A stretch of DNA of 33,998 nt from Thermococcus celericrescens (lineage in GTDB: Archaea; Methanobacteriota_B; Thermococci; Thermococcales; Thermococcaceae): NCBI RefSeq assembly GCF_001484195.1, contig NZ_LLYW01000010.1:1-33998 (forward strand), in the 5' to 3' direction. How positions within the stretch are numbered: position 1 is the first letter of the stretch; every line of letters begins with the position of its first letter. Positions 23,137 through 33,998 of the stretch are shown here, piece after piece. The translations under genes were made by a program, and so were the position numbers. The notes under the pieces are model-generated. The model ran no database searches. It was not told the DNA's origin and worked only from the letters and a program-made list of their open reading frames with translations.

Positions 23137-23226
23137 TTTTTAAACCCGCTTCGTAAGTTAAGCACGGAACTCGTGAGGCCTCCCCGATAAATGGTGGGTT
23201 TCCCGCCCGAGGGGGCCGAGGTTCGA
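23137..23226 (+). ncRNA. Candidate structured RNA upstream of EF-1alpha
   Basis: A TATA-like TTTTTAAA (23137-23144) precedes a GC-rich island in otherwise AT-rich intergenic DNA. From about 23163 three helices are visible: CACG/CGTG (23163-23166, 23172-23175); GGCCTCC with GGGGGCC (23177-23183, 23211-23217, one G-U pair); and, nested inside, GGTGGG/CCCGCC (23193-23198, 23202-23207) with a TTT loop. No box C/D or ACA box is evident, so the class is unknown. It could instead be a DNA-level or leader structure. Confidence 0.4.
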
Positions 23227-23230
23227 AAGA

Positions 23231-23237
23231 TTTAAAA
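23231..23237 (+). promoter_or_regulatory. TATA box of the EF-1alpha/S10 operon
   Basis: TTTAAAA preceded by CGAAAGA (BRE-like). Transcription is predicted near 23258, giving a ~28-nt leader with GGAGGTG (23272-23278). Confidence 0.65.
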
Positions 23238-23285
23238 AGCCATCCTAGTCAATCGGACTAGACCAAAGTTTGGAGGTGTATGGAA

Positions 23286-24948: not shown

Positions 24949-25034
24949 GCCGGGGTAGCCTAGCCTGGGAAGGCGCTGGCCTGGAGAGCCAGTGGGCTCT
25001 GCCCACCAGGGTTCAAATCCCTGCCCCGGCGCCA
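24949..25034 (+). tRNA. tRNA-Ser(GGA)
   Basis: Acceptor stem GCCGGGG/CCCCGGC (24949-24955, 25024-25030), discriminator G, encoded CCA (25032-25034). The anticodon arm is CTGGC-CTGGAGA-GCCAG, giving anticodon GGA. A long variable arm (TGGGCTCTGCCCA) and T-arm CAGGGTTCAAATCCCTG are class II serine features. It decodes UCC/UCU. No intron. Confidence 0.95.
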
Positions 25035-25083
25035 TACAAACTTTGCCTGCGCAAAGTTTGATCAAAGTTTGTATGTCTTTTTT
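25034..25083 (+). terminator. Terminator after tRNA-Ser with alternative hairpins
   Basis: CAAACTTTGC/GCAAAGTTTG (25037-25046, 25051-25060) forms a 10-bp hairpin with a CTGC loop. A direct repeat of CAAAGTTTG at 25063-25071 lets ATACAAACTTTG (25034-25045) pair instead with CAAAGTTTGTAT (25063-25074). TTTTTT (25078-25083) follows, so this is a good intrinsic-type terminator. Confidence 0.65.
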
Positions 25084-25306
25084 GAATTCGTGATTTTCCA
25101 AAGTGGTTTTCAGTTTAAATCGCTGTTTCTCAATGTTTCACTGCCCTTGGCGCTCTTCGAGCGCCTAAAATTGGGAAATCTACTAAAAAGCCGGTTTTTC
25201 AATAAAACCCTCACCCGCAAGTCAGTTTAAAGGACATACTAACTCATCCTACTTGTTCCCCAAAAGTTGTCCCTCGACGAACTTTGCCCCCTTAAAACTC
25301 GTCCGT
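25084..25306. other. Intergenic region at the edge of the restriction island
   Basis: No gene is seen. A perfect 7-bp hairpin GGCGCTC-TTC-GAGCGCC lies at 25149-25165. It may separate the converging + strand tRNA transcript and the - strand restriction operon. Base composition drops compared with the S10 side. Confidence 0.4.
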
Positions 25307-25969
25307 CTAAACCTCTCTCAGCTTTCTCCACACCTCGTTGTACTGGAGCGCAAGCCAGTACTCTCTCAGTCCCCTCTGGGCACGCATGTAATCTGGATAA
25401 TACTCTCTCACGAGCTCCCAAAATGCGCGGGAGTGCTTTTGGAACTTGAGGTGGGCCACCTCGTGGATTATGATGTAGTCCCTAAGTTCCTCTGGCAGCG
25501 CCATAAGCATCAGGTTAAAGCTTAGATTTCCTTTCTCAGAGCAACTCGCCCATTTAGTCCTCTGGAAGCGGATGTAGATTTTTCTGTACTTTACCCCAAA
25601 GACCGATGAAAAGAGTCTCACCTTGAATTCCAGCTCTTCTCTCAGCTGGCTTTTCAGCCATCTTTTTAGCATCCCCAAATCGTCCTTGGGCAGGAGAACC
25701 ACGTGAAACTTTGGATTAACCCCGAACTCCTCCGACTCGATGAGTTCGTAGAACTCCCCGTCGAGTATGAGCTTATTGGAAAGCTGGAGAAACTTCATCT
25801 TGGCTTCTTCGATTTCCCTTAACTTCTTCTCTATCCACTCCTTCTTTCTCTTCACCAGATCCTCAGCCTCTGCATTCGGTGGGACTATTACCTTAACCTC
25901 CCCAAGGGGGCTTATCTCGATGCGGGGATACTTAACGTCCCTCCGAATTACGCGGTACTCTACCCCCAC
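25307..25969 (-). CDS. YgjP-like (DUF45) metallopeptidase
   Basis: 220 residues of the YgjP/DUF45 family, which commonly accompanies type I restriction loci. The zinc-binding motif HEVAH is in IIHEVAHLKFQKHSRAFWELVREYYPDY, with the third ligand histidine about eight residues on (KHSRAFW). KWASCSEKGNLSFNLML is the other family block. The GTG start at 25969 (VGVEYRVIRRD) was chosen because GAGGTGAT lies at the correct distance upstream; an extension to 26020 lacks support and covers the preceding frame. It overlaps the 3' end of the preceding HsdR C-terminal fragment by 10 bp, so it is last in the restriction operon. Its role there is not established. Confidence 0.85.
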   Translation of the reverse strand: MGVEYRVIRRDVKYPRIEISPLGEVKVIVPPNAEAEDLVKRKKEWIEKKLREIEEAKMKFLQLSNKLILDGEFYELIESEEFGVNPKFHVVLLPKDDLGMLKRWLKSQLREELEFKVRLFSSVFGVKYRKIYIRFQRTKWASCSEKGNLSFNLMLMALPEELRDYIIIHEVAHLKFQKHSRAFWELVREYYPDYMRAQRGLREYWLALQYNEVWRKLREV

Positions 25970-26173
25970 CTTTTGATCACCTCTAGGAGCTCGTTGCGCG
26001 TCTTGATGATGTCGTCGCATTCCTCCTTATATTCCCTTACAATGAAGAGCATAACCTTCCGCGAGACTTCGCTGACGATCTCGGTTTTCTCTGTCCAGCG
26101 GGGGAACCTGAGCCCCCCGGTCTCCTTGAGCAACTTTCTAACCCCTCTGATCAGCTCGTTAGTATTGGTCTTT
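25960..26173 (-). pseudogene. Detached C-terminal segment of HsdR (frame -1)
   Basis: Just past the hsdR stop a -1 frame reads on for about 70 residues (VRKLLKETGGLRFPRWTEKTEIV, SEVSRKVMLFIVREYKEE) to a TAG at 25960. The pattern of W/F, T/D-E-K and then a basic amphipathic helix resembles the end of type I HsdR subunits, which helps bind the methylase core. In this frame the only start is a TTG inside hsdR, with no ribosome site. A one-base deletion in the purine-rich AAGAAGGAAGAAAGAAG run near 26190 explains it; some residues between the pieces may also be lost. A separate small gene is less likely. Confidence 0.55.
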
Positions 26174-28796
26174 ACGTGCTTCTTTCTTCCTTCTTGTGCC
26201 TCCAAGCTTCGATTATCCTCTCTACCTGCTCAACCAAGTCCTCCGTTAAAGGTCCCTTGTGGGTGTTTACGTAGTGTCTGACCGAGAATATGAGGTTGGT
26301 AAACGCTCTCCGCTTATCCCTCTCCCTCATTACTTTCTTAAGGAACTCATCGTCAAGTTCGATTATTGGAAAGTCAGTCTTTATCTCCTCTATGTCTACT
26401 GTCTCATGTATGAACCTGAGGGCCTCCCTGAAGAATTCGTCGGCTTTGAGCTCGACCTCCGGCGGAACGCCATCAACCTTCGCTCTGTATGCATAATAGA
26501 CCTCCGTGAGCCATTTGAAGGCTTCCCTGAACTCATCTCTGTCCTCCCTGAGGAGCTTGTAGTGGTGCCTTATCTCCCTGTACAGCCTCCCGAACTCCTC
26601 CCCTTTATTTGTTCTAAAGAGCCTTTCAACGGCAGCCATTATGGCCTCCCTACCTCTTCCCGGCTCAAGGCCATCAAAGTATCCCATAGCCTTGGAGATC
26701 TTTTTCCTGAGCTCTTCCTTTATCTCTTCGACGCTGTAAGCGGCTCCTTCGATGTCAGCCTCGTTATAGATCTCCAGTGCCCTCTTCAACTCCTTGAATA
26801 TGCCCACGTAATCTATAACGAGGCCGAAGGGCTTGACGTTCTCGCCGTTCTTGATGAAGGGCCTGTTGGTTCTCGCTATTGCCTGAAGGAGCCTGTGCTC
26901 CTTGAGCGGCTTGTCCAGATACATGGTTTGAAGGATCGGGGCGTCAAAGCCTGTGAGAAGCATATCGGTAACTATCAGGATTTTTGGAGTTTCTTTGTTC
27001 CTGAAATCCTCACGAATTCTCTCGCGGATTTCAGCCATGTCTTTTCCTGGGAAACGCTCTTCAAGTTCCCTCTGATACTCCTTAATAACCTCGCCCTCAT
27101 CCCGGTTGAACGTCATCACGACCTCGGTGTACTCCCTTGGCAAATACTTGTCGAGGGCATGCTTGTATAAGACGCAGGACTCCCTGTCAACCGCTACCAC
27201 CATTGCTTTAAACGGCTCCACGCTCTCCCTATAGTGTCTTGCTATGTCCTGGGCTATGGTTTCGATCCTCTTCGGGTTTTTCAGGAACACCTTTATCGCG
27301 TTGAGCCTCTTCTTGAGCTTCTCCTCCACCCTTCCGCGGTACTCCTCCGGGATTTCCTCAAGCTTCGATGAGAGAAATGCCTCAAGGAGCTCCCTCTTTA
27401 GGTGAACGTCCTCCTCAAGCCTCGCCTGGTAGGCTATCTTCACGGTAAAGCCGTCCTCGATGGACTGCGTTATGAAGTACCTGTCGAGGTAGGGCCTGTC
27501 CTTATAGCCGAAGGTGGCGTAGGTGTCGCGCCCTTTCTTTGCTATCGGGGTTCCCGTAAAGGCGAAGAAGGACGCGCTCTTGAGTATCGAGCGCATAGTC
27601 GAAGCAAGCTCGCCGTACTGGGTTCTGTGTCCTTCGTCTATGAGAACCACGACGTCTTTGCGGTTCATTATTGTCTTTCTTCTCCGGCTTTCCCTCTTGA
27701 GACCCTCCAGCACGTCATTGAGGTCCTCGGCGCGGAACTTGTGGATGAGCGTGATGAACGTTCCCCTCTTTCCATCTGCGTGGGTTAGGACTTCCTTGAG
27801 CTTCTCGATTGAATCTATGACTTCAAAGCTCAGCCCCACGGCTTTAAGCTCGCCGCTCAGCTGCCTCTCCAGCTCCCTCCTGTCAACGACGAAGAAAATC
27901 GTGGGGTTGCCGAGCAGGCGCTTGATTTTATAGGCGGAGAATATCATGGTCAAGGTTTTTCCACTTCCCTGCCAGTGCCAGATTAAACCCCGGTTTCTTT
28001 CCGTCTCGCCCCTCGCGTAGGCCAGAGCGATGCTCACTATCTCCCTAACCGCCCGGTACTGCATGTACCTCGGCAGAACCTTTGTAAAAGCTCCACCGCT
28101 CTCACGGTAGAAGGTGAAGTAGCGGAGGACGTCAAGGAGGGTCTCAGGTTTTAAAAGCTCAACCAGGTTGTCCAGCTCATCAAAGCTCTCGCCCTTCCAT
28201 TCATAGACTGGAACACTGCTGAGCCACGGCACTATGGGGAAATAGACAGGTTTATCTCCAACCGCAACGCCGATCTGCACGTACTTGAAGAGCTCGGGCA
28301 TCTCCTTCTCATAGCTTTTAATCTGCTCGTAGGCCTTTTTCCAGCTCACATCGAGCTTTTTGCACTCGATTATGACCAGCGGGATGCCGTTGACGTAGAG
28401 GATCAGGTCGGGTATCTTGGTCTTAAACGGGTAGCCGACCTGGTTGGCAACGAGGAACTCGTTGTTTCCGAGGTTTTCGTAGTCAATGAGCATCAGCCTC
28501 CTCGGTTGAGCGGTTTCCTCATCCTTCACGGGAACGCCGTTCTTGAGGTAGTCGAGAACCCTGCGGGAACCTTCAACGCCGAAAGGGGTAGCTTTGAGGA
28601 GATTGATTGCCTCCTCCGCTTCCCTCTCGCTAACTCCGTTTATCCTCACTATCGCGTCCTTCAACCTTGAGATCAGGAGGGGCTCGTTTTTGTCTTCGAG
28701 GACCTCAATGCCCCTCCGGTAAGTCCAGCCTTTTTCCTTTAACCGATCGATGATGGGCTTTTCGCACTGGAGGTATTCGGGGGTTTGAGCGGGCAT
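26172..28796 (-). CDS. hsdR: Type I restriction enzyme HsdR (motor/endonuclease) subunit
   Basis: 874 residues. The N-terminal PD-(D/E)xK nuclease has KIPDLILYVNG with D130 and VIIECKK with E144 and K146. The SF2 translocase motifs follow: I WHWQGSGKTLTM, II VVLIDEGHR, III FAFTGTPI, V MLLTGFDAPILQTMYLDKPL, VI QAIARTNRP. The ATG at 28796 (MPAQTPEYLQ) is chosen for AGGTG upstream; in-frame ATGs at 28832 and 28823 lack ribosome sites. The protein ends early at EAWRHKKEERST, where related subunits usually continue ~80-150 residues; that tail is visible in the -1 frame downstream. The catalytic parts are intact, but docking to the methylase core may be impaired. Two TATA candidates lie upstream (28868-28876, 28811-28820, minus strand). 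Confidence 0.92.
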   Translation of the reverse strand: MPAQTPEYLQCEKPIIDRLKEKGWTYRRGIEVLEDKNEPLLISRLKDAIVRINGVSEREAEEAINLLKATPFGVEGSRRVLDYLKNGVPVKDEETAQPRRLMLIDYENLGNNEFLVANQVGYPFKTKIPDLILYVNGIPLVIIECKKLDVSWKKAYEQIKSYEKEMPELFKYVQIGVAVGDKPVYFPIVPWLSSVPVYEWKGESFDELDNLVELLKPETLLDVLRYFTFYRESGGAFTKVLPRYMQYRAVREIVSIALAYARGETERNRGLIWHWQGSGKTLTMIFSAYKIKRLLGNPTIFFVVDRRELERQLSGELKAVGLSFEVIDSIEKLKEVLTHADGKRGTFITLIHKFRAEDLNDVLEGLKRESRRRKTIMNRKDVVVLIDEGHRTQYGELASTMRSILKSASFFAFTGTPIAKKGRDTYATFGYKDRPYLDRYFITQSIEDGFTVKIAYQARLEEDVHLKRELLEAFLSSKLEEIPEEYRGRVEEKLKKRLNAIKVFLKNPKRIETIAQDIARHYRESVEPFKAMVVAVDRESCVLYKHALDKYLPREYTEVVMTFNRDEGEVIKEYQRELEERFPGKDMAEIRERIREDFRNKETPKILIVTDMLLTGFDAPILQTMYLDKPLKEHRLLQAIARTNRPFIKNGENVKPFGLVIDYVGIFKELKRALEIYNEADIEGAAYSVEEIKEELRKKISKAMGYFDGLEPGRGREAIMAAVERLFRTNKGEEFGRLYREIRHHYKLLREDRDEFREAFKWLTEVYYAYRAKVDGVPPEVELKADEFFREALRFIHETVDIEEIKTDFPIIELDDEFLKKVMRERDKRRAFTNLIFSVRHYVNTHKGPLTEDLVEQVERIIEAWRHKKEERST

Positions 28797-28810
28797 GGAG
28801 GGCACCTGTT

Positions 28811-28876
28811 TATTTATAAACATCGGGACCATCAGAGAGGTTGGATGTTTATGGATAAACCCTTTGGTTTTAAATA
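28811..28876 (-). promoter_or_regulatory. Two candidate TATA boxes for hsdR
   Basis: On the minus strand TATTTAAAA (28876-28868) predicts a start near 28847 and a ~50-nt leader. TTTATAAATA (28820-28811) is a better TATA match, but at ~20 nt before the chosen ATG it is close for a leaderless start. Either allows hsdR to be expressed independently of hsdM/hsdS. Confidence 0.45.
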
Positions 28877-28919
28877 TTCATGCAAGTCAGAACTTCACCT
28901 GATTTTTTGAGATTGGACT

Positions 28920-29191
28920 CTTGTGGGCGGAGGTGGGGGATTCGAACCCCCTATAGTCCAACACCCCCTGGGCGGGACTTACAGCGGCGCTCCCCTCACC
29001 ACCAAGGCATGTATGAGATGGGTGGGCCCCTTATCACCCTCCGGCCGCAGGGGGCCCACCCCCGCCCATTGTGATATCTTGTAAATACTGGATTACTGAT
29101 ATCACCCCCGCGATTATTTGTAGGAGGGTGATAGTTGCCTGTGGATTCACTGAAAGCCCAACGGCGAGGAGAGCAACCACCTGCCCACAAG
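28920..29191 (-). ncRNA. Structured RNA with tRNA-like T-arm between hsdS and hsdR
   Basis: A ~272-nt GC-rich stretch in AT-richer DNA with no coding frame. On the minus strand its ends pair: CTTGTGGGC+AGGT (29191-29179) with ACCT+GCCCACAAG (28934-28931, 28928-28920), 13 bp with a CC bulge. The 3' strand is directly continuous with a perfect hairpin GGGGG-TTCGAAT-CCCCC (28951-28935), a consensus tRNA T-arm. Inside is an 11-bp hairpin GGGTGGGCCCC/GGGGCCCACCC (29061-29051, 29030-29020) with a 20-nt loop. The loop segment GGAGGGTGATA (29042-29032) matches TATCACCCTCC (29133-29123) over 11 bp, a possible pseudoknot. A strong TATA box lies ~26 nt upstream of the 5' end. It is not recognisable as tRNA, SRP RNA, RNase P RNA or a box C/D or H/ACA RNA. 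Confidence 0.7.
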
Positions 29192-29216
29192 ATAATTATG
29201 TTATAACCATCTAGGG

Positions 29217-29224
29217 TATTTATA
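29217..29224 (-). promoter_or_regulatory. TATA box of the structured RNA
   Basis: TATAAATA on the minus strand, preceded by GAAAGG (BRE). It is one of the best promoter matches in the window and lies just after the hsdS stop. The predicted start (~29195) coincides with the 5' arm of the RNA's terminal helix. Confidence 0.7.
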
Positions 29225-29246
29225 CCTTTCACCCGACAAAGAAAGT

Positions 29247-30542
29247 TTAGTCTACACAATTTACCCTCCTCCCCGTCAGCAGGTCCTTCATCAGCCCGCG
29301 CTTGACCCTCTCCAGCTTCTCCCTTCTCTTTCTCAGGAGTTTGAGCCTTCTGTCAACGGTGGAGAGTATTTCGGCGATCTGCTTTTGTTCTTCTAGGGGC
29401 GGGAGGGGGAGCCTTATGTTTAGAAGATCAGATTTTCTTATTCCCGCCTGACCCACATGTCTTATGGCGATTTGCTTGAAATACTGTATCTGCCAAAGCC
29501 GGATAAAATTGTAAACAAGCCACTCGGGTATTGTAACATCATTCTTAACGCGAATACGGGTTATGTGGTTGCTGTATGTGCAAAACTCACATTCCCCCCT
29601 AAAGACGGCACTTTTACCCAGCAAATCAACACTGTTGGTATTGTTGAACAACACATCACCAGGTCTTAGGAGGTAATCGTTAATGTTCTTGTTCTTTGGT
29701 ATTGGAACTTTCAGATACTGGTCAAGTACGACCCGTCCATCTGTGGTTATGTTATTCATTCTAAGTTGAATTATGCCATTCTCGTCTCGTTTTCCACTTG
29801 CAAAGCCTGGCTTCGCTTCTGTGATGATGTCCTCAACTTTGACAACCCTCCACTCCTCGGGAATCTCGCCCAGCTCGGTCTTCTTGAACCGCTCGTGCTT
29901 TATTCCCTTAGTCAAAAGCCTCTGCATCAGGCCCTTTTTCAGGCGTTCCGTCCGCTCGATAGCTTTGTCAGTCTTCTCGATGGCCTCGTCAACCGTTCTG
30001 AGTATCTCGGCGATTTTCCTCTGCCCGGGGAGGGGTGGGAGAGGAAGAGGTATATTTAATAAATCTGCCTTTTTAATACTTGCTTGCCCCACGTATCTAA
30101 CACAGATCTGTCTAAAGTATCCGATTCTCCAAAGTTCCATAAAATAGTACATTATCCACTCTGGGATAACTCGACTAGAATCTACCCGGATTCTTGTTAT
30201 GTGGTTGCTATATGTACAAAACTCACACTCGCCACGAAATATAGCTGTTTTACCAATTAAGTCAACACTGTTCGTGTTATTAAACAGTACATCGCCCGGC
30301 TTAAGGAGATAATCTTCAATGTTGCTTCGGACTGGAACTTCCAAGTATTCCTTTAGTGTGACCTTGCCCTCAGTAGTGATGTTGTTCATTCTAAGCTGAA
30401 TTATCCCGTTCTCATCACGTTTTCCGCTTGCAAATCCTGGTTTAGCCTCTTTGATAACATCTTTTATTTTAATGACCTCCCACCCCTCTGGAATCTCGCT
30501 GAGTGGGGTTTTCTTGAACCTAGTTTTAGTCTGAGTATGCAT
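29247..30542 (-). CDS. hsdS: Type I restriction-modification specificity subunit HsdS with near-identical TRDs
   Basis: 431 residues with two target-recognition domains, each followed by the conserved coiled spacer: first ending PLPPLPGQRKIAEILRTVDEAIEKTDKAIER, second ending PLPPLEEQKQIAEILSTVDRRLKLLRKRRE. The two TRDs (about residues 16-170 and 218-375) are strikingly alike, sharing EAKPGFASGKRDENGIIQL, DVLFNNTNSVDL and GECEFCTYSNHITRIRV. Most type I HsdS proteins have unrelated TRDs. The start ATG 30542 follows GAGAGGTGA at 6 nt; the in-frame GTG upstream is part of that ribosome site. It lies 12 nt after the small membrane-protein gene. HsdS selects the DNA sequence for both methylation (with HsdM) and cleavage (with HsdR). 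Confidence 0.93.
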   Translation of the reverse strand: MHTQTKTRFKKTPLSEIPEGWEVIKIKDVIKEAKPGFASGKRDENGIIQLRMNNITTEGKVTLKEYLEVPVRSNIEDYLLKPGDVLFNNTNSVDLIGKTAIFRGECEFCTYSNHITRIRVDSSRVIPEWIMYYFMELWRIGYFRQICVRYVGQASIKKADLLNIPLPLPPLPGQRKIAEILRTVDEAIEKTDKAIERTERLKKGLMQRLLTKGIKHERFKKTELGEIPEEWRVVKVEDIITEAKPGFASGKRDENGIIQLRMNNITTDGRVVLDQYLKVPIPKNKNINDYLLRPGDVLFNNTNSVDLLGKSAVFRGECEFCTYSNHITRIRVKNDVTIPEWLVYNFIRLWQIQYFKQIAIRHVGQAGIRKSDLLNIRLPLPPLEEQKQIAEILSTVDRRLKLLRKRREKLERVKRGLMKDLLTGRRVNCVD

Positions 30543-30554
30543 CGGATTCACCTC

Positions 30555-30908
30555 TCAAAACATCAATATTATGACACCCACAAATGCGGAGTTATACATG
30601 AATGCAACAGCATAAAAGAAGCCTGACAGTGATGTATCGCTCCAATATGCCAAGATTGCAATAATCCCAAGGATTAACCCCACGTTGGCATACAGGCATA
30701 ATAATGGTTCTGTGATTCCCCTAGCAATTAGATAAGTATTCAGCGCTATAACATTGGCAAAGAGTGAGGGACGGGAGATAAAGTGTTTCTCTACAAGAAG
30801 ACCAACGATTATCATGGCAATAGCTCCAAGTTTGTTAAGGAACTCCGGATTTGATAGTGCCGGAAAAATCTGAAGAAGAATGTAGTCATTCATTAGGCTC
30901 TCAAGCAT
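30555..30908 (-). CDS. Small membrane protein in the hsd operon
   Basis: 117 residues with three or four hydrophobic segments: LGAIAMIIVGLLVE, LFANVIALNTYLIA, CLYANVGLILGIIAILAYW and GFFYAVAFMYNSAFVGVIILMF. The start ATG follows GGAGGGA, which overlaps the last codons of the PIN gene, and lies 1 nt after that gene's stop; the two are translationally coupled. GC content is lower than in the housekeeping genes. No family is recognised. It is co-transcribed with restriction genes; a role in host membrane effects or toxin-antitoxin-like function would be guesswork. Confidence 0.65.
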   Translation of the reverse strand: MLESLMNDYILLQIFPALSNPEFLNKLGAIAMIIVGLLVEKHFISRPSLFANVIALNTYLIARGITEPLLCLYANVGLILGIIAILAYWSDTSLSGFFYAVAFMYNSAFVGVIILMF

Positions 30909-30909
30909 T

Positions 30910-31524
30910 TTATAGTCCCTCCAAAATCTGTATCATTCTCCCGGGCCTTACAATTTTGAAATTCCTCTCCTCGAAGAACTTTCTCGTTCTTTTTCTTATG
31001 CGCTTGTCCTCCAGCAAATCGTGAAAGTCCCGGTCCATGGTTACGAAATAATCCATACCGTGCTTTATCGCCGTCGTGATGAGTATTGCATCTTGCGTCA
31101 TTAGTCCAGCCCTTGCAACGAAGAAGGGATAGTATTCAACGTCGAACACTGAGTCCTCAATAACGTTCAGCCGTTCCCTGATGAGATTTGAGAGCTTGAT
31201 AATTGCATCAAGAAACTCGTCGAACTCCTCACCGGTGAGCAGGAAGTCCTTGAAGTACTTTCCCCAGTATAGGGCCGCTATTCCTTCCGAACGCATTTTC
31301 TCGGAGATTAAAAAATCGGCAAAAGCCCTCGTCATCTCCGCCAGTGCGAGGTTTGAGGTGTAGAACTCCGCCTTAAACGTCCCGTTGATAGCCCCTTCAA
31401 CAAGGCGATAGGACTGCTCCAACTTGCGATATTTGTTAATTAGCCCCTCGCCATGCCTCTCAATACCCTTCTTCAAAATCGCCCAGTGGACTATTGTGTT
31501 CGTATCAACGAACACCTTAACCAT
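30910..31524 (-). CDS. PIN-domain RNase
   Basis: 204-residue PIN-fold nuclease. The first acidic residue is in VKVFVDTNTIVHWA (D7), a conserved Glu is in NLALAEMTRAFADFL, and the C-terminal acidic cluster is in LMTQDAILITTAIKHGMDYFVTMDRDFHDL, giving the Mg2+ site typical of VapC-type RNases. It is longer than most VapC toxins (~130 residues), with a helical insert (about 35-130). The ATG at 31524 follows TTGAGGGG, 6 nt after the stop of a Lys-rich mini-protein, which is the only candidate antitoxin nearby. It sits between hsdM and hsdS; substrate unknown. VapC relatives often cut tRNA, notable because the operon also encodes a T-arm-bearing RNA. Confidence 0.8.
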   Translation of the reverse strand: MVKVFVDTNTIVHWAILKKGIERHGEGLINKYRKLEQSYRLVEGAINGTFKAEFYTSNLALAEMTRAFADFLISEKMRSEGIAALYWGKYFKDFLLTGEEFDEFLDAIIKLSNLIRERLNVIEDSVFDVEYYPFFVARAGLMTQDAILITTAIKHGMDYFVTMDRDFHDLLEDKRIRKRTRKFFEERNFKIVRPGRMIQILEGL

Positions 31525-31530
31525 AGCCCC

Positions 31531-31710
31531 TCAACCCAGAAGATCCCAAATCGACCCTTTTTTCTTTGTGCTCTTCTTCTTGGGAGGATGCCATAGTCCC
31601 ACTATTTTATACTGCCCGTTGGGCTGAATCTCGGCGAGATAGTATTTTCCTGTAAGCGGGTTGTGGATGCGCTTGTACTTTTTCTTTTTGGACTTCTTTT
31701 TTGTGGCCAT
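31531..31710 (-). CDS. Lys-rich 59-residue mini-protein
   Basis: 59 residues, 20 or so of them Lys: ATKKKSKKKKYKRIHNPLTGKYY, AEIQPNGQYKIVGLWHPP, then KKKSTKKKGSIWDLLG. Lys clusters at both ends flank a short beta-hairpin-like core (KYYLAEIQPNGQYKIVGLW). ATG 31710 follows GGGTGA; an upstream in-frame TTG at 31725 is rejected. It is located between hsdM (47 nt upstream) and the PIN gene (6 nt downstream). It could be a nucleic-acid-binding protein or an unusual antitoxin for the PIN nuclease; antitoxins are usually acidic, so the second is weak. Confidence 0.6.
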   Translation of the reverse strand: MATKKKSKKKKYKRIHNPLTGKYYLAEIQPNGQYKIVGLWHPPKKKSTKKKGSIWDLLG

Positions 31711-31757
31711 TTTTTCACCCAACAATTTCTAAGGTTGGTATTTAATAAACCCTTTCC

Positions 31758-33311
31758 TCAATATCCCAGCTCCCTCAAATACCCCTCGATCTTCTCATCA
31801 ACCTTCGCCAGCTCCTCGTTAATTCTCCTCAGCTCCTCCCACTCGGCCTTAACATCGATCTCCTCCTCTTCCTCCATCGGGAAGACATAGAGGGTGACGT
31901 TGAGGTTGTGGTCGTTCTCCTTTATCTCGTCCAGGTCAACGACGCGCGCAAAGCCATCAACGTCCTCGAACTTCTCGAAAGCGGTAACTATTTTTCTGAT
32001 GTGCTCCTCGCCGAGGCGGTTGAGCTTCCTTATTTCGGGGTGTTTCTCGTACTCCTGTGAGGCGTTGATGAAGAGGACTTTTCCCTTCCTCTCTTTCGGC
32101 TTGTTGAGGTTGAAGACCATTATAGCCCCCGGCGCGCCGGTGTTGTAGAAGAGCTTCTCCGGGAGAAGTATCACCGCCTCAAGCAGGTCGTCCTTGAGTA
32201 TCTTCGCCCTTATCTTCTTTTCAGCCTCGCCCCTGAAGAGTGCGCCATTGTCTATGACGATGCCGACCCTTCCGTTATCTTTTGCACTCGCGAGCATGTG
32301 CTGGATCCATGCCCAATCTGCTGAGTTGTTCGGCGGATAGCCGTACTTGAAACGCTCCTCCTTGAACTCGGCCTTTTTGAGAGTCTCCTCGCCGTAGCCG
32401 TCCTGGTTCCACGGAGGGTTGGCTATAACCACATCGAAGCGCTTGAGCCTTTCGCCGTCCTTGAACTGTGGCCGTAGCAGTGTATCACCGACTGCCAGCT
32501 TTGGCGACTTAATGCCGTGGAGTATCATGTTCATCTCAGCTAAAGCGTAGGTGGTTGGGTTGACCTCCTGGCCATAGAGGAAGAGCTTTTTAGCCTCATC
32601 CGCTCCGCGGTGCTCCTTAACGTAGAGATAAGCTCCGATGAGCATGCCACCAGAACCCATAGATGGATCATAAATCTCCTCGCCCGGCTCCGGCTTGAGG
32701 ATTTCAACTAGAAGCCTTATGACCTCTCTTGGGGTATAAACCTCACCCTCCTTGGCCTTCTGCGGGGCAAAATACCTCAGAATCCACTCGTAGGCATCGC
32801 CAAGAACATCGGGCGAGGCGTTCTTTAAGTCAAGCCCGCTGAAGAGCTCGAAGAGCTGCCTGAGTATTTCAGCGTTGTCCCTGTGGAGCATGAACTCCAT
32901 GAAGTCAAAGCGGTCAACGACACCCCTCAGGTTGGGGTTGAGCTCGGCGAGCTTCTTGAGCGCCTGCGAGAGGTTCTGGGGAAGGCTCTCGATGTCCTTC
33001 TCGCGGAGCTTCCTCCAGAGGTATTCAGGTGGATAGTTAATCGTGTACGCTTCCCTGTCTTTGAGGGCAAGCTCTTCGGCGGTCTTTCTGTCCAGACCTT
33101 CCTTCATGAGCTTCCTAACGTATTCCTCAAACTCCTTCTCCCACTCGTCGCTCAGACGTTTCAGGAAGAGCAGAAGGAGGATATACTTGTAATCGACCCT
33201 TGTCCTGATTAAATCTGCGGCCTTCTTAAGAACCCTCTCAAGCTCTTCCCTGGTTAAACCGTTATCCTTCCTGGAGGCATGGCCGATGAAATCGGTGAGC
33301 TTCCTCTCCAT
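31758..33311 (-). CDS. hsdM: Type I restriction-modification methyltransferase HsdM
   Basis: 517-residue N6-adenine DNA methyltransferase of the M.EcoKI type. The N-terminal helical domain contains YKYILLLLFLKRLSDEWEKEF (residues 41-61). EVYTPREVIRLL is followed by motif I DPSMGSGG (215-222), which binds S-adenosylmethionine. The catalytic motif IV NPPW is at 298-301. The C-terminal coiled region (EELRRINEELAKVDEKIEGYLREL) matches the HsdM-HsdS contact helix. Start ATG 33311 follows GGTGTGA and a TATA box. First gene of the island; two molecules with one HsdS form the methylase core. Confidence 0.94.
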   Translation of the reverse strand: MERKLTDFIGHASRKDNGLTREELERVLKKAADLIRTRVDYKYILLLLFLKRLSDEWEKEFEEYVRKLMKEGLDRKTAEELALKDREAYTINYPPEYLWRKLREKDIESLPQNLSQALKKLAELNPNLRGVVDRFDFMEFMLHRDNAEILRQLFELFSGLDLKNASPDVLGDAYEWILRYFAPQKAKEGEVYTPREVIRLLVEILKPEPGEEIYDPSMGSGGMLIGAYLYVKEHRGADEAKKLFLYGQEVNPTTYALAEMNMILHGIKSPKLAVGDTLLRPQFKDGERLKRFDVVIANPPWNQDGYGEETLKKAEFKEERFKYGYPPNNSADWAWIQHMLASAKDNGRVGIVIDNGALFRGEAEKKIRAKILKDDLLEAVILLPEKLFYNTGAPGAIMVFNLNKPKERKGKVLFINASQEYEKHPEIRKLNRLGEEHIRKIVTAFEKFEDVDGFARVVDLDEIKENDHNLNVTLYVFPMEEEEEIDVKAEWEELRRINEELAKVDEKIEGYLRELGY

Positions 33312-33345
33312 GATTCACACCGAAGAAAGGATACTCCATCGGGTT

Positions 33346-33357
33346 CTTATATTTAAC
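33346..33357 (-). promoter_or_regulatory. TATA box of the hsd operon
   Basis: TTAAATATAA on the minus strand, with transcription predicted near 33325. The short leader carries GGTGTGA before the hsdM ATG. It is the entry point for hsdM, the cargo genes and hsdS. Confidence 0.6.
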
Positions 33358-33390
33358 TCCATAAGGAAGAAGCAAAGAACGGGGCAGAAA

Positions 33391-33998
33391 TCAAATCCCA
33401 GCCCCAATATCCTCCGCGATGTCCGGGAGGTCGAGGGCCATGAGCTTGGCCTTGGTTGGGATTCCGTCCCTGCTCCAGCCGCGGGCCTGGTAGTATTCGT
33501 CGAGCATCCTATCGAGCTCCCACGGCGGGACGTGGAGGCCCTTGCTGACGCCCTCCGGGATCGGCTCCCACATGATTCTGTACGGCAGGGTGTCGTCCTT
33601 CCTGCTGAAGCCCTCGCGGACGTTGAAGGCCCTGGCGATGTTCATTATCCTCTCGCCGATGACCATCAGCTCGGCCTCGCCGATGTTCATGCCGGTGATG
33701 GCCTCGACGAGCGGCGGGAAGCCCTCGAGGAAGTACATGTGCCTTGAGAACTTGCACGTTCCGGTGGCGTCGTAGACCGCCATGAGGTTCTCGTGGAACG
33801 CTATTTCGAATCCCTTGTTCTCGCCCCTGGTCCTGTCAACGCCCTCGAACTTCCACCACCTGCCGACGAGCTCGGTTCCGTAGGCGCCGCTGGTGAGGTG
33901 GTCGGCACCGCGGACGCTGACGGCGAAAGCAAGTGCCATTCCCTTTATGCCGCGGACATCGTATGCTGGCGGCTCCATTCCCTTGACGTGCATGGCGA
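33391..33998 (-). CDS. Aldehyde ferredoxin oxidoreductase family, C-terminal part
   Basis: The last ~202 codons; the frame is open to the window edge, so the 5' part is missing. The segment ARAFNVREGFSRKDDTLPYR is diagnostic of the tungsten (tungstopterin) aldehyde/formaldehyde ferredoxin oxidoreductases. PAYDVRGIKGMALAFAVSVRGADHLTSGAYG is the domain-2/3 boundary of the same family. The usual ending (LDEYYQARGWSRDGIPTKAKLMALDLPDIAEDI) follows. These enzymes oxidise aldehydes to acids with ferredoxin as acceptor in sugar and peptide catabolism. The Fe-S-cluster cysteine motif is not in view here. Which paralog (AOR, FOR or GAPOR-like) cannot be decided from the fragment. Confidence 0.9.
   Translation of the reverse strand, partial: AMHVKGMEPPAYDVRGIKGMALAFAVSVRGADHLTSGAYGTELVGRWWKFEGVDRTRGENKGFEIAFHENLMAVYDATGTCKFSRHMYFLEGFPPLVEAITGMNIGEAELMVIGERIMNIARAFNVREGFSRKDDTLPYRIMWEPIPEGVSKGLHVPPWELDRMLDEYYQARGWSRDGIPTKAKLMALDLPDIAEDIGAGI

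Follow-up and report, generated by a model that had tools for sequence, protein, structure and literature searches.

A candidate small gene with a tRNA-like 3' domain and a putative hydrophobic peptide between hsdS and hsdR of type I restriction-modification islands in Thermococcaceae

Introduction

The type I restriction-modification (R-M) island of Thermococcus celericrescens carries, in the gap between hsdS and hsdR, a stretch of 272 nt whose minus strand can fold extensively and ends in a tRNA-like arm. What is this element, and why does it sit there? A preliminary description took it for a structured RNA of no recognised class, without a coding frame, perhaps a substrate or decoy for a PIN RNase of the same operon. 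We analysed it within the window, that is, the whole 33,998-nt stretch of DNA under study, and searched for counterparts among 94 Thermococcaceae genomes (given below by their G numbers, and their loci by L numbers).

Results

Promoter and flanking genes

Judged from the DNA, the minus strand of the 28920-29191 region appears to be a small gene that the annotation lacks, with a promoter of its own from which it would be transcribed. A TATA box (TATAAATA, 29217-29224, minus strand) was read directly, within a BRE/TATA region at 29217-29232 (minus strand) whose BRE is purine-rich (GTGAAAGG), in agreement with the upstream box described earlier. From the TATA box, transcription is predicted to start near 29194 on the minus strand. 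In the 11 family members that include this region, the distance from the first TATA-box base to the start codon downstream of it is 28-44 nt, so the mRNA should be almost leaderless. After the 3' end of the element no U-rich terminator was seen, which makes a processed 3' end plausible. The upstream neighbour is hsdS, the type I specificity subunit gene (29247-30551, minus strand; Pfam Methylase_S, 2.4e-35), and the downstream neighbour is hsdR (26172-28832, minus strand; PADLOC REase_I, 5e-110). The hsdR frame of the window is shifted near the C-terminus (26172-26205, minus strand), with the remainder in an ORF at 25960-26205; the frame is intact in most relatives (about 980-1016 aa), and the shift in the window is a mutation or a sequencing error.

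Distribution of the element in Thermococcaceae

Counterparts were found in 12 of the 94 Thermococcaceae genomes, the window's included, all of one family. BLASTN recovered G032, G039, G083 and G084, and a second query recovered G062; together with the window these six form subtype 1. The DNA upstream of hsdR homologs yielded subtype 2 in G057, G013 and G002, and a peptide search added G063, G022 and a contig-end fragment in G054, giving six members of subtype 2. The results showed that 11 of the 12 carriers adjoin type I R-M genes, so the link to the R-M island, suspected from a single locus, is real. At all loci but G039 the cassette directly follows hsdS, or follows hsdS and a membrane-protein gene of a 286-aa family, and hsdR lies downstream wherever the contig continues. 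Only the 286-aa gene and the RNA remain in G039, at the same junction between an aldehyde:ferredoxin-oxidoreductase (AOR)-like gene and tRNA-Ser-rpsJ-EF1A that holds the window's island, and the G039 locus therefore looks like a relic; apart from it, no strong match lies away from R-M genes. Among the 15 hsdR loci most similar to that of the window, the cassette is present at nine and absent from six. With the hsdR of G032, G022 and G057 the window hsdR shares 92-95% identity, yet the cassettes beside these genes belong to different lineages, so the cassette has been exchanged or evolves far faster than hsdR. In Thermococcaceae, these comparisons suggest, the element is an accessory cassette that can be swapped and has its place in the hsdS-hsdR gap of type I R-M islands.

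The surroundings of the island were also recorded. In the window (24949-33993) it lies between tRNA-Ser(GGA)/rpsJ/EF1A and the AOR-like gene; loci L054, L053 and L055 were compared with it. AOR-like genes, named by eye and not via a family search, also flank the islands of G032 and G084, and the reduced G039 island occupies the same junction as the window's; the junction is likely an insertion hot spot. An SscA RNA (RF00063, 82.6 bits) is located at 23166-23262 (plus strand), just before the EF-1A gene, and a 64-aa lysine-rich ORF conserved in G032 is located at 31531-31725 (minus strand), between hsdM and the PIN gene. Other hsdS-hsdR gaps (L097, L100, L103, L105, L106 and L108) hold other small genes, in addition or instead, encoding coiled-coil proteins with a C-terminal TM segment, vapBC, and a minimal nucleotidyltransferase-like protein.

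A conserved hydrophobic reading frame

The element had been described as lacking a coding frame, which does not hold. A 48-codon frame (MVALLAVGLSVNPQATITLLQIIAGVISVIQYLQDITMGGGGPPAAGG) runs from a GTG start to a TGA stop at 29180 to 29034 on the minus strand and is open, hydrophobic and conserved. Between the window and G032, the frame aligns gap-free over 33 codons with 14 of 33 residues identical, 10 of them through different synonymous codons. Its BLOSUM score was 59 against 8.5±14.7 after column shuffling (p=1.5e-4), whereas the other two frames scored -31 and 4, and the same coding-frame test between the window and G084 gave p=0.012. Of 13 NG86 comparisons, the eight with at least 20 differences gave a dN/dS of 0.32-0.50, although these eight share sequences and are not independent; the five close pairs gave 0.39-2.3, being too close to be informative, and no clear purifying signal was found for the close pairs G057-G022 and G084-G083. 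Fisher tests were significant for G002-G057 (p=0.007) and window-G032 (p=0.016) and not for G032-G084 (p=0.10). The frame had been picked by eye before all of these tests, and their results carry no correction for that choice.

The predicted peptides are 47-58 aa long, with a maximal 19-residue Kyte-Doolittle (KD) hydropathy of 1.5-2.3 across members (1.84 in the window), and the hydrophobic segment exceeded nucleotide shuffles in all 11 complete peptides (p 0.0005-0.029). The C-terminal part is poorly conserved, with a frame-shifted stretch in G063. The strong matches of a subtype-1 peptide profile were the known loci only, and comparison of the subtype-1 and subtype-2 profiles detected no homology. 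These results suggest that the frame encodes a conserved hydrophobic peptide of the single-pass type, which would be translated from this RNA.

The 3' half resembles part of a tRNA

The two ends of the element are complementary, as first described: 29191-29177 pairs with 28936-28920 in a duplex of -26.0 kcal/mol, and the ends of none of 3000 random 272-nt window segments paired as well. The whole 272 nt folds at -131.8 kcal/mol (z = -4.9 against shuffled sequence). The perfect T-arm GGGGG-TTCGAAT-CCCCC was also found as reported, at 28951-28935 on the minus strand (5 bp, loop UUCGAAU), and on both strands of the window just one further perfect 5-bp arm carries a TTCRANY loop, that of tRNA-Ser(GGA) at 24949.

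Comparison with relatives revised the closing helix. The end pairing stands and is strong in subtype 1 (-21 to -29 kcal/mol in G032, G084 and G062, comparable to the window), but it is weak in subtype 2 (-9 to -12 kcal/mol), and the T-arm-adjacent helix that relatives conserve is an internal one, which we call P1'. The 3' strand (CCACCUCCGCCCACAAG, 28920-28936, minus strand) thus has alternative partners. One is the 5' end (CUUGUGGGCAGGUGG, 29177-29191, minus strand), which includes the GUG start codon; the other is the 5' strand of the acceptor-like P1' (GGGCGGGGGU, 29058-29067, minus strand), which pairs with 28934-28925 through 10 pairs including one G-U and has equivalents in relatives. 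The duplex energy of the 3' strand is -32.3 kcal/mol with the internal partner versus -26.0 kcal/mol with the 5' end. A hairpin, P2, follows at 29020-29061 (minus strand), with arms GGGUGGGCCCC (29061-29051) and GGGGCCCACCC (29030-29020) and a 20-nt loop that contains the stop codon; the last bases of P1' overlap the longest form of P2, which shrinks to 7 bp when P1' is full-length.

The seven outer pairs of P2 each vary among the window, G032 and G062, and within each of them the arms still pair at 11 of 11 positions, whereas arms swapped between lineages form 6-9 of 11 pairs. The arms were chosen by eye and compared by script, since MAFFT misaligned P2 in G062. The arms change together between lineages, and comparison among homologs left the structure standing. 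In subtype 2 a three-way layout recurs, in which P1' (in G057, GUGGGGGCGG/CCGCCCCCAC) bears a stacked hairpin and directly adjoins a T-arm, and the window can form the same layout from P1', P2 and its T-arm. The minimum-energy fold of G002 was no better than shuffles (z = -0.3), so the layout is not a claim that single-sequence energy carries; in the subtype 2 alignment fold the covariation term is about zero (0.16), most pairs being invariant. By eye, a double pseudoknot (loop CUCUGGG/CCCAGAG and loop CGGAGGU/ACCUCCG) fits G032, and fits G062 with one G-U pair.

The UUCRANY T-loop is canonical in all relatives that reach the region except G062, and it is kept where the flanking sequence diverges. 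Conservation does not extend to a CCA end or to an acceptor of 7 bp, as subtype 2 shows. Taken together, the 3' half is best read as a tRNA-like domain made of an acceptor-like helix, the P2 hairpin and a T-arm with a UUCRANY loop, and the recurrence of this layout in relatives supports the acceptor/T-arm-like closing domain originally proposed.

T-arm and acceptor sequences are usual integration sites, and the element might be the remnant of an attachment site derived from a tRNA, or else a miniature inverted-repeat element, with a structure kept by descent only. An inverted repeat at the ends and a BLASTN identity with G032 that starts exactly at the T-arm fit such an origin. We regard it as highly improbable, and both versions fail on the evidence: the element is single-copy in the genome, its acceptor sequence occurs in no host tRNA, the arms of P1' and of P2 co-change between lineages, and subtype 2 lacks the end repeat.

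Comparison with known RNA families

No Rfam family reached threshold at the element, whether gathering or relaxed thresholds were applied, which agrees with the earlier view that it belongs to no known RNA class, and no match to it was found in Rfam, Pfam or PHROGs. Among the accessory proteins tested, PADLOC gave no convincing match beyond the R-M genes. Plasmid and phage records, searched with one query each, and viral contigs, searched with the peptide and the 286-aa protein, contained no relatives. The extra matches from a 3'-end pattern search proved to be unrelated DNA.

A model built from four sequences (R1) recovered two members from outside its training set where they were expected, G062 with E 1e-8 and the window with E 6e-5, the E-values being rough, and a model built from subtype 2 (R2; its E-values likewise rough) matched the window at the same bases with 29 bits. 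Real tRNAs score about 17-37 bits with R1 and R2, and the weaker matches were tRNAs where checked, so these cross-matches show tRNA-likeness more than common descent. ARAGORN labels members as tRNA-Ser(aga), tRNA-??? (the G002 element) or tRNA-Leu with intron. The genome paper of Palaeococcus pacificus lists a tRNA-Ser(aga) with a 29-bp intron, and RNA-seq data are on deposit for P. pacificus strain DY20341 (PMC6981617). The window element has the T-arm with a UUCRANY loop; neither Rfam nor ARAGORN called a tRNA in it, and it has no complete cloverleaf with D-arm and anticodon arm.

A tRNA-like domain joined to a short reading frame recalls tmRNA (RF00023), which likewise combines an acceptor-like helix and a T-arm, without an anticodon, with a short reading frame. 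Production of tmRNA was not known from any archaeon (PMC11915505). That the element is an archaeal tmRNA acting in trans-translation is extremely improbable, and the reading fails on SmpB: the protein was not found in the genome, by a search that detects it in 10 bacteria. The element also has no alanine identity pair (G3-U70, read from sequence) and no ALAA-type tag, and its frame, which brings a start codon of its own, for the most part precedes the tRNA-like portion. The ARAGORN tmRNA search was negative, and the best score of the Rfam tmRNA model was 21.2 bits (G057) against a threshold of 47.

The same tRNA-likeness could mean that the RNA itself is the effector, as a processed tRNA mimic acting as decoy or sponge for a host or viral tRNA-binding or tRNA-cutting protein, with the peptide minor or gating the fold. 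The tRNA-like register of acceptor and T-arm, the scores of real tRNAs with R1 and R2, the ARAGORN labels, the sub-threshold tmRNA match and the T-loop kept amid diverging flanks are consistent with this. Selection on the amino acids of the reading frame speaks against it, as do the unconserved CCA end and acceptor length in subtype 2 and the G062 loop that deviates from UUCRANY; on balance we think it unlikely.

Neighbouring genes

The suggestion that the RNA is a substrate or decoy of a PIN RNase is not supported by the relatives. Several loci have PIN genes; in G062 and G002, however, we recognised no such gene in the interval from hsdM to hsdS, the only one recognised in G083 sits in a separate downstream vapBC pair, and G039 keeps the RNA with neither R-M nor PIN neighbour.

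Partner genes vary among loci and include the 286-aa membrane family, a membrane family of about 400 aa, vapBC and others. The family of about 400 aa was found in G062 and G002 (28% identity, E 5e-35) and in G013, G063 and G022, where it was assigned by position and similar sequence; the 286-aa family is present at four loci. The C-terminus of the latter gave weak Hfq/Sm-like matches (Pfam E 0.04-0.08; PDB Hfq E 0.42 and 1.1), in the genes at L009:388-1248 and L055:7143-7985. Modelled with AlphaFold, once by itself and once with four sequences, the 286-aa protein reached pLDDT 48 and 45, too low for use.

A larger membrane protein adjoins the RNA at most loci, and the peptide may be a harmless small membrane subunit, or an adaptor for these neighbours or for docking the R-M enzyme to the membrane, while the 3' domain would serve only mRNA stability or 3'-end formation, for which the plausibly processed 3' end is also suitable. 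The window and G057 have neither membrane family here, and the two partner families are mutually unrelated, so we give this explanation a low probability. It is still less probable that the element acts in cis on the gene downstream (hsdR or that for the protein of about 400 aa), as a regulatory leader or an attenuator. The element ends at an ATG in G062 and shortly before the gene for the protein of about 400 aa in most of subtype 2, as a leader would; however, a separate TATA box serves hsdR in the window (28869-28876, upstream of hsdR on the minus strand) and in G032, the downstream genes differ (vapBC, hsdR, a coiled-coil protein), and G039 retains the RNA without such a gene.

Discussion

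We tentatively favour a membrane-active peptide controlled by its own RNA in the manner of type I toxin mRNAs and carried by a swappable cassette, its toxicity and its role in defence being suggested by analogy; the main competing readings are the RNA as effector and the harmless membrane subunit. From its own promoter the gene would give an almost leaderless mRNA of about 270 nt encoding a hydrophobic, single-pass-type peptide of 47-58 residues, and the end of the frame would fold with the following region into the tRNA-like 3' domain. The peptide would most likely be membrane-active, and folding of the mRNA that encodes it would restrain its synthesis. The 3' end of subtype 1 may choose between the internal P1' strand and the 5' end that holds the start codon, and could thereby pair over that codon as in the hok and aapA mRNAs; such end pairing cannot be the general mechanism, because it is weak in subtype 2. 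If the cell were disturbed or the island lost, the peptide would then be set free, to serve as a backup defence or as an addiction element.

The comparison with the type I toxin mRNAs of hok/Sok and aapA/IsoA starts from a peptide of about 50 residues, likewise hydrophobic, on a compact and highly folded mRNA. Hydrophobicity and size, the whole basis of this link, would relate the peptide to membrane toxins. Hok has 52 aa and its mRNA is activated through 3' processing (PMC8309996), aapA and hok mRNAs have a 5'-3' long-distance interaction (PMC6733600), and in both, end pairing silences the toxin and 3' trimming frees it (PMC6733600, PMC8309996). Those mRNAs are bacterial and have an antisense RNA, whereas the element is archaeal, has a tRNA-like 3' domain and is tied to type I R-M, and its peptide is a putative toxin. 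No antisense antitoxin gene was identified at the locus; a TATA-like TTTAAATA on the plus strand overlaps the palindromic hsdR promoter at 28869-28876 and is not kept in G039 and G084. A limited literature search, covering open-access papers only, found no type I toxin-antitoxin system in archaea.

The element also resembles CreTA, the RNA toxin-antitoxin of archaeal and bacterial CRISPR-Cas (PMC8501985), in that a small RNA gene containing a tiny reading frame is associated with a defence locus, with a possible guard or addiction role. In CreTA, Cascade together with CreA represses CreT, which acts by sequestering rare tRNAs; no such machinery was seen here. Plant RNA viruses carry an RNA 3' end with a tRNA-like fold and T-arm; the element, unlike these, is a cellular archaeal gene whose CCA end is not conserved.

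A further and rather improbable extension is that RNase P, tRNase Z, an elongation factor or a tRNA-cutting nuclease reads the 3' domain as a tRNA mimic, so that disturbed tRNA handling (viral or stress-induced) or loss of the R-M island would lead to a membrane-killing peptide. The element would then be a tRNA-status sensor guarding a restriction system, and we know of no such sensor.

If the favoured reading of an RNA-controlled membrane-active peptide is true, archaea would have a small gene for a hydrophobic peptide whose mRNA ends in a tRNA-like tail. The element would also account for the odd ARAGORN 'tRNA-Ser(aga)' calls at two such loci, and the gap between hsdS and hsdR would stand out as a site where accessory cassettes are swapped.
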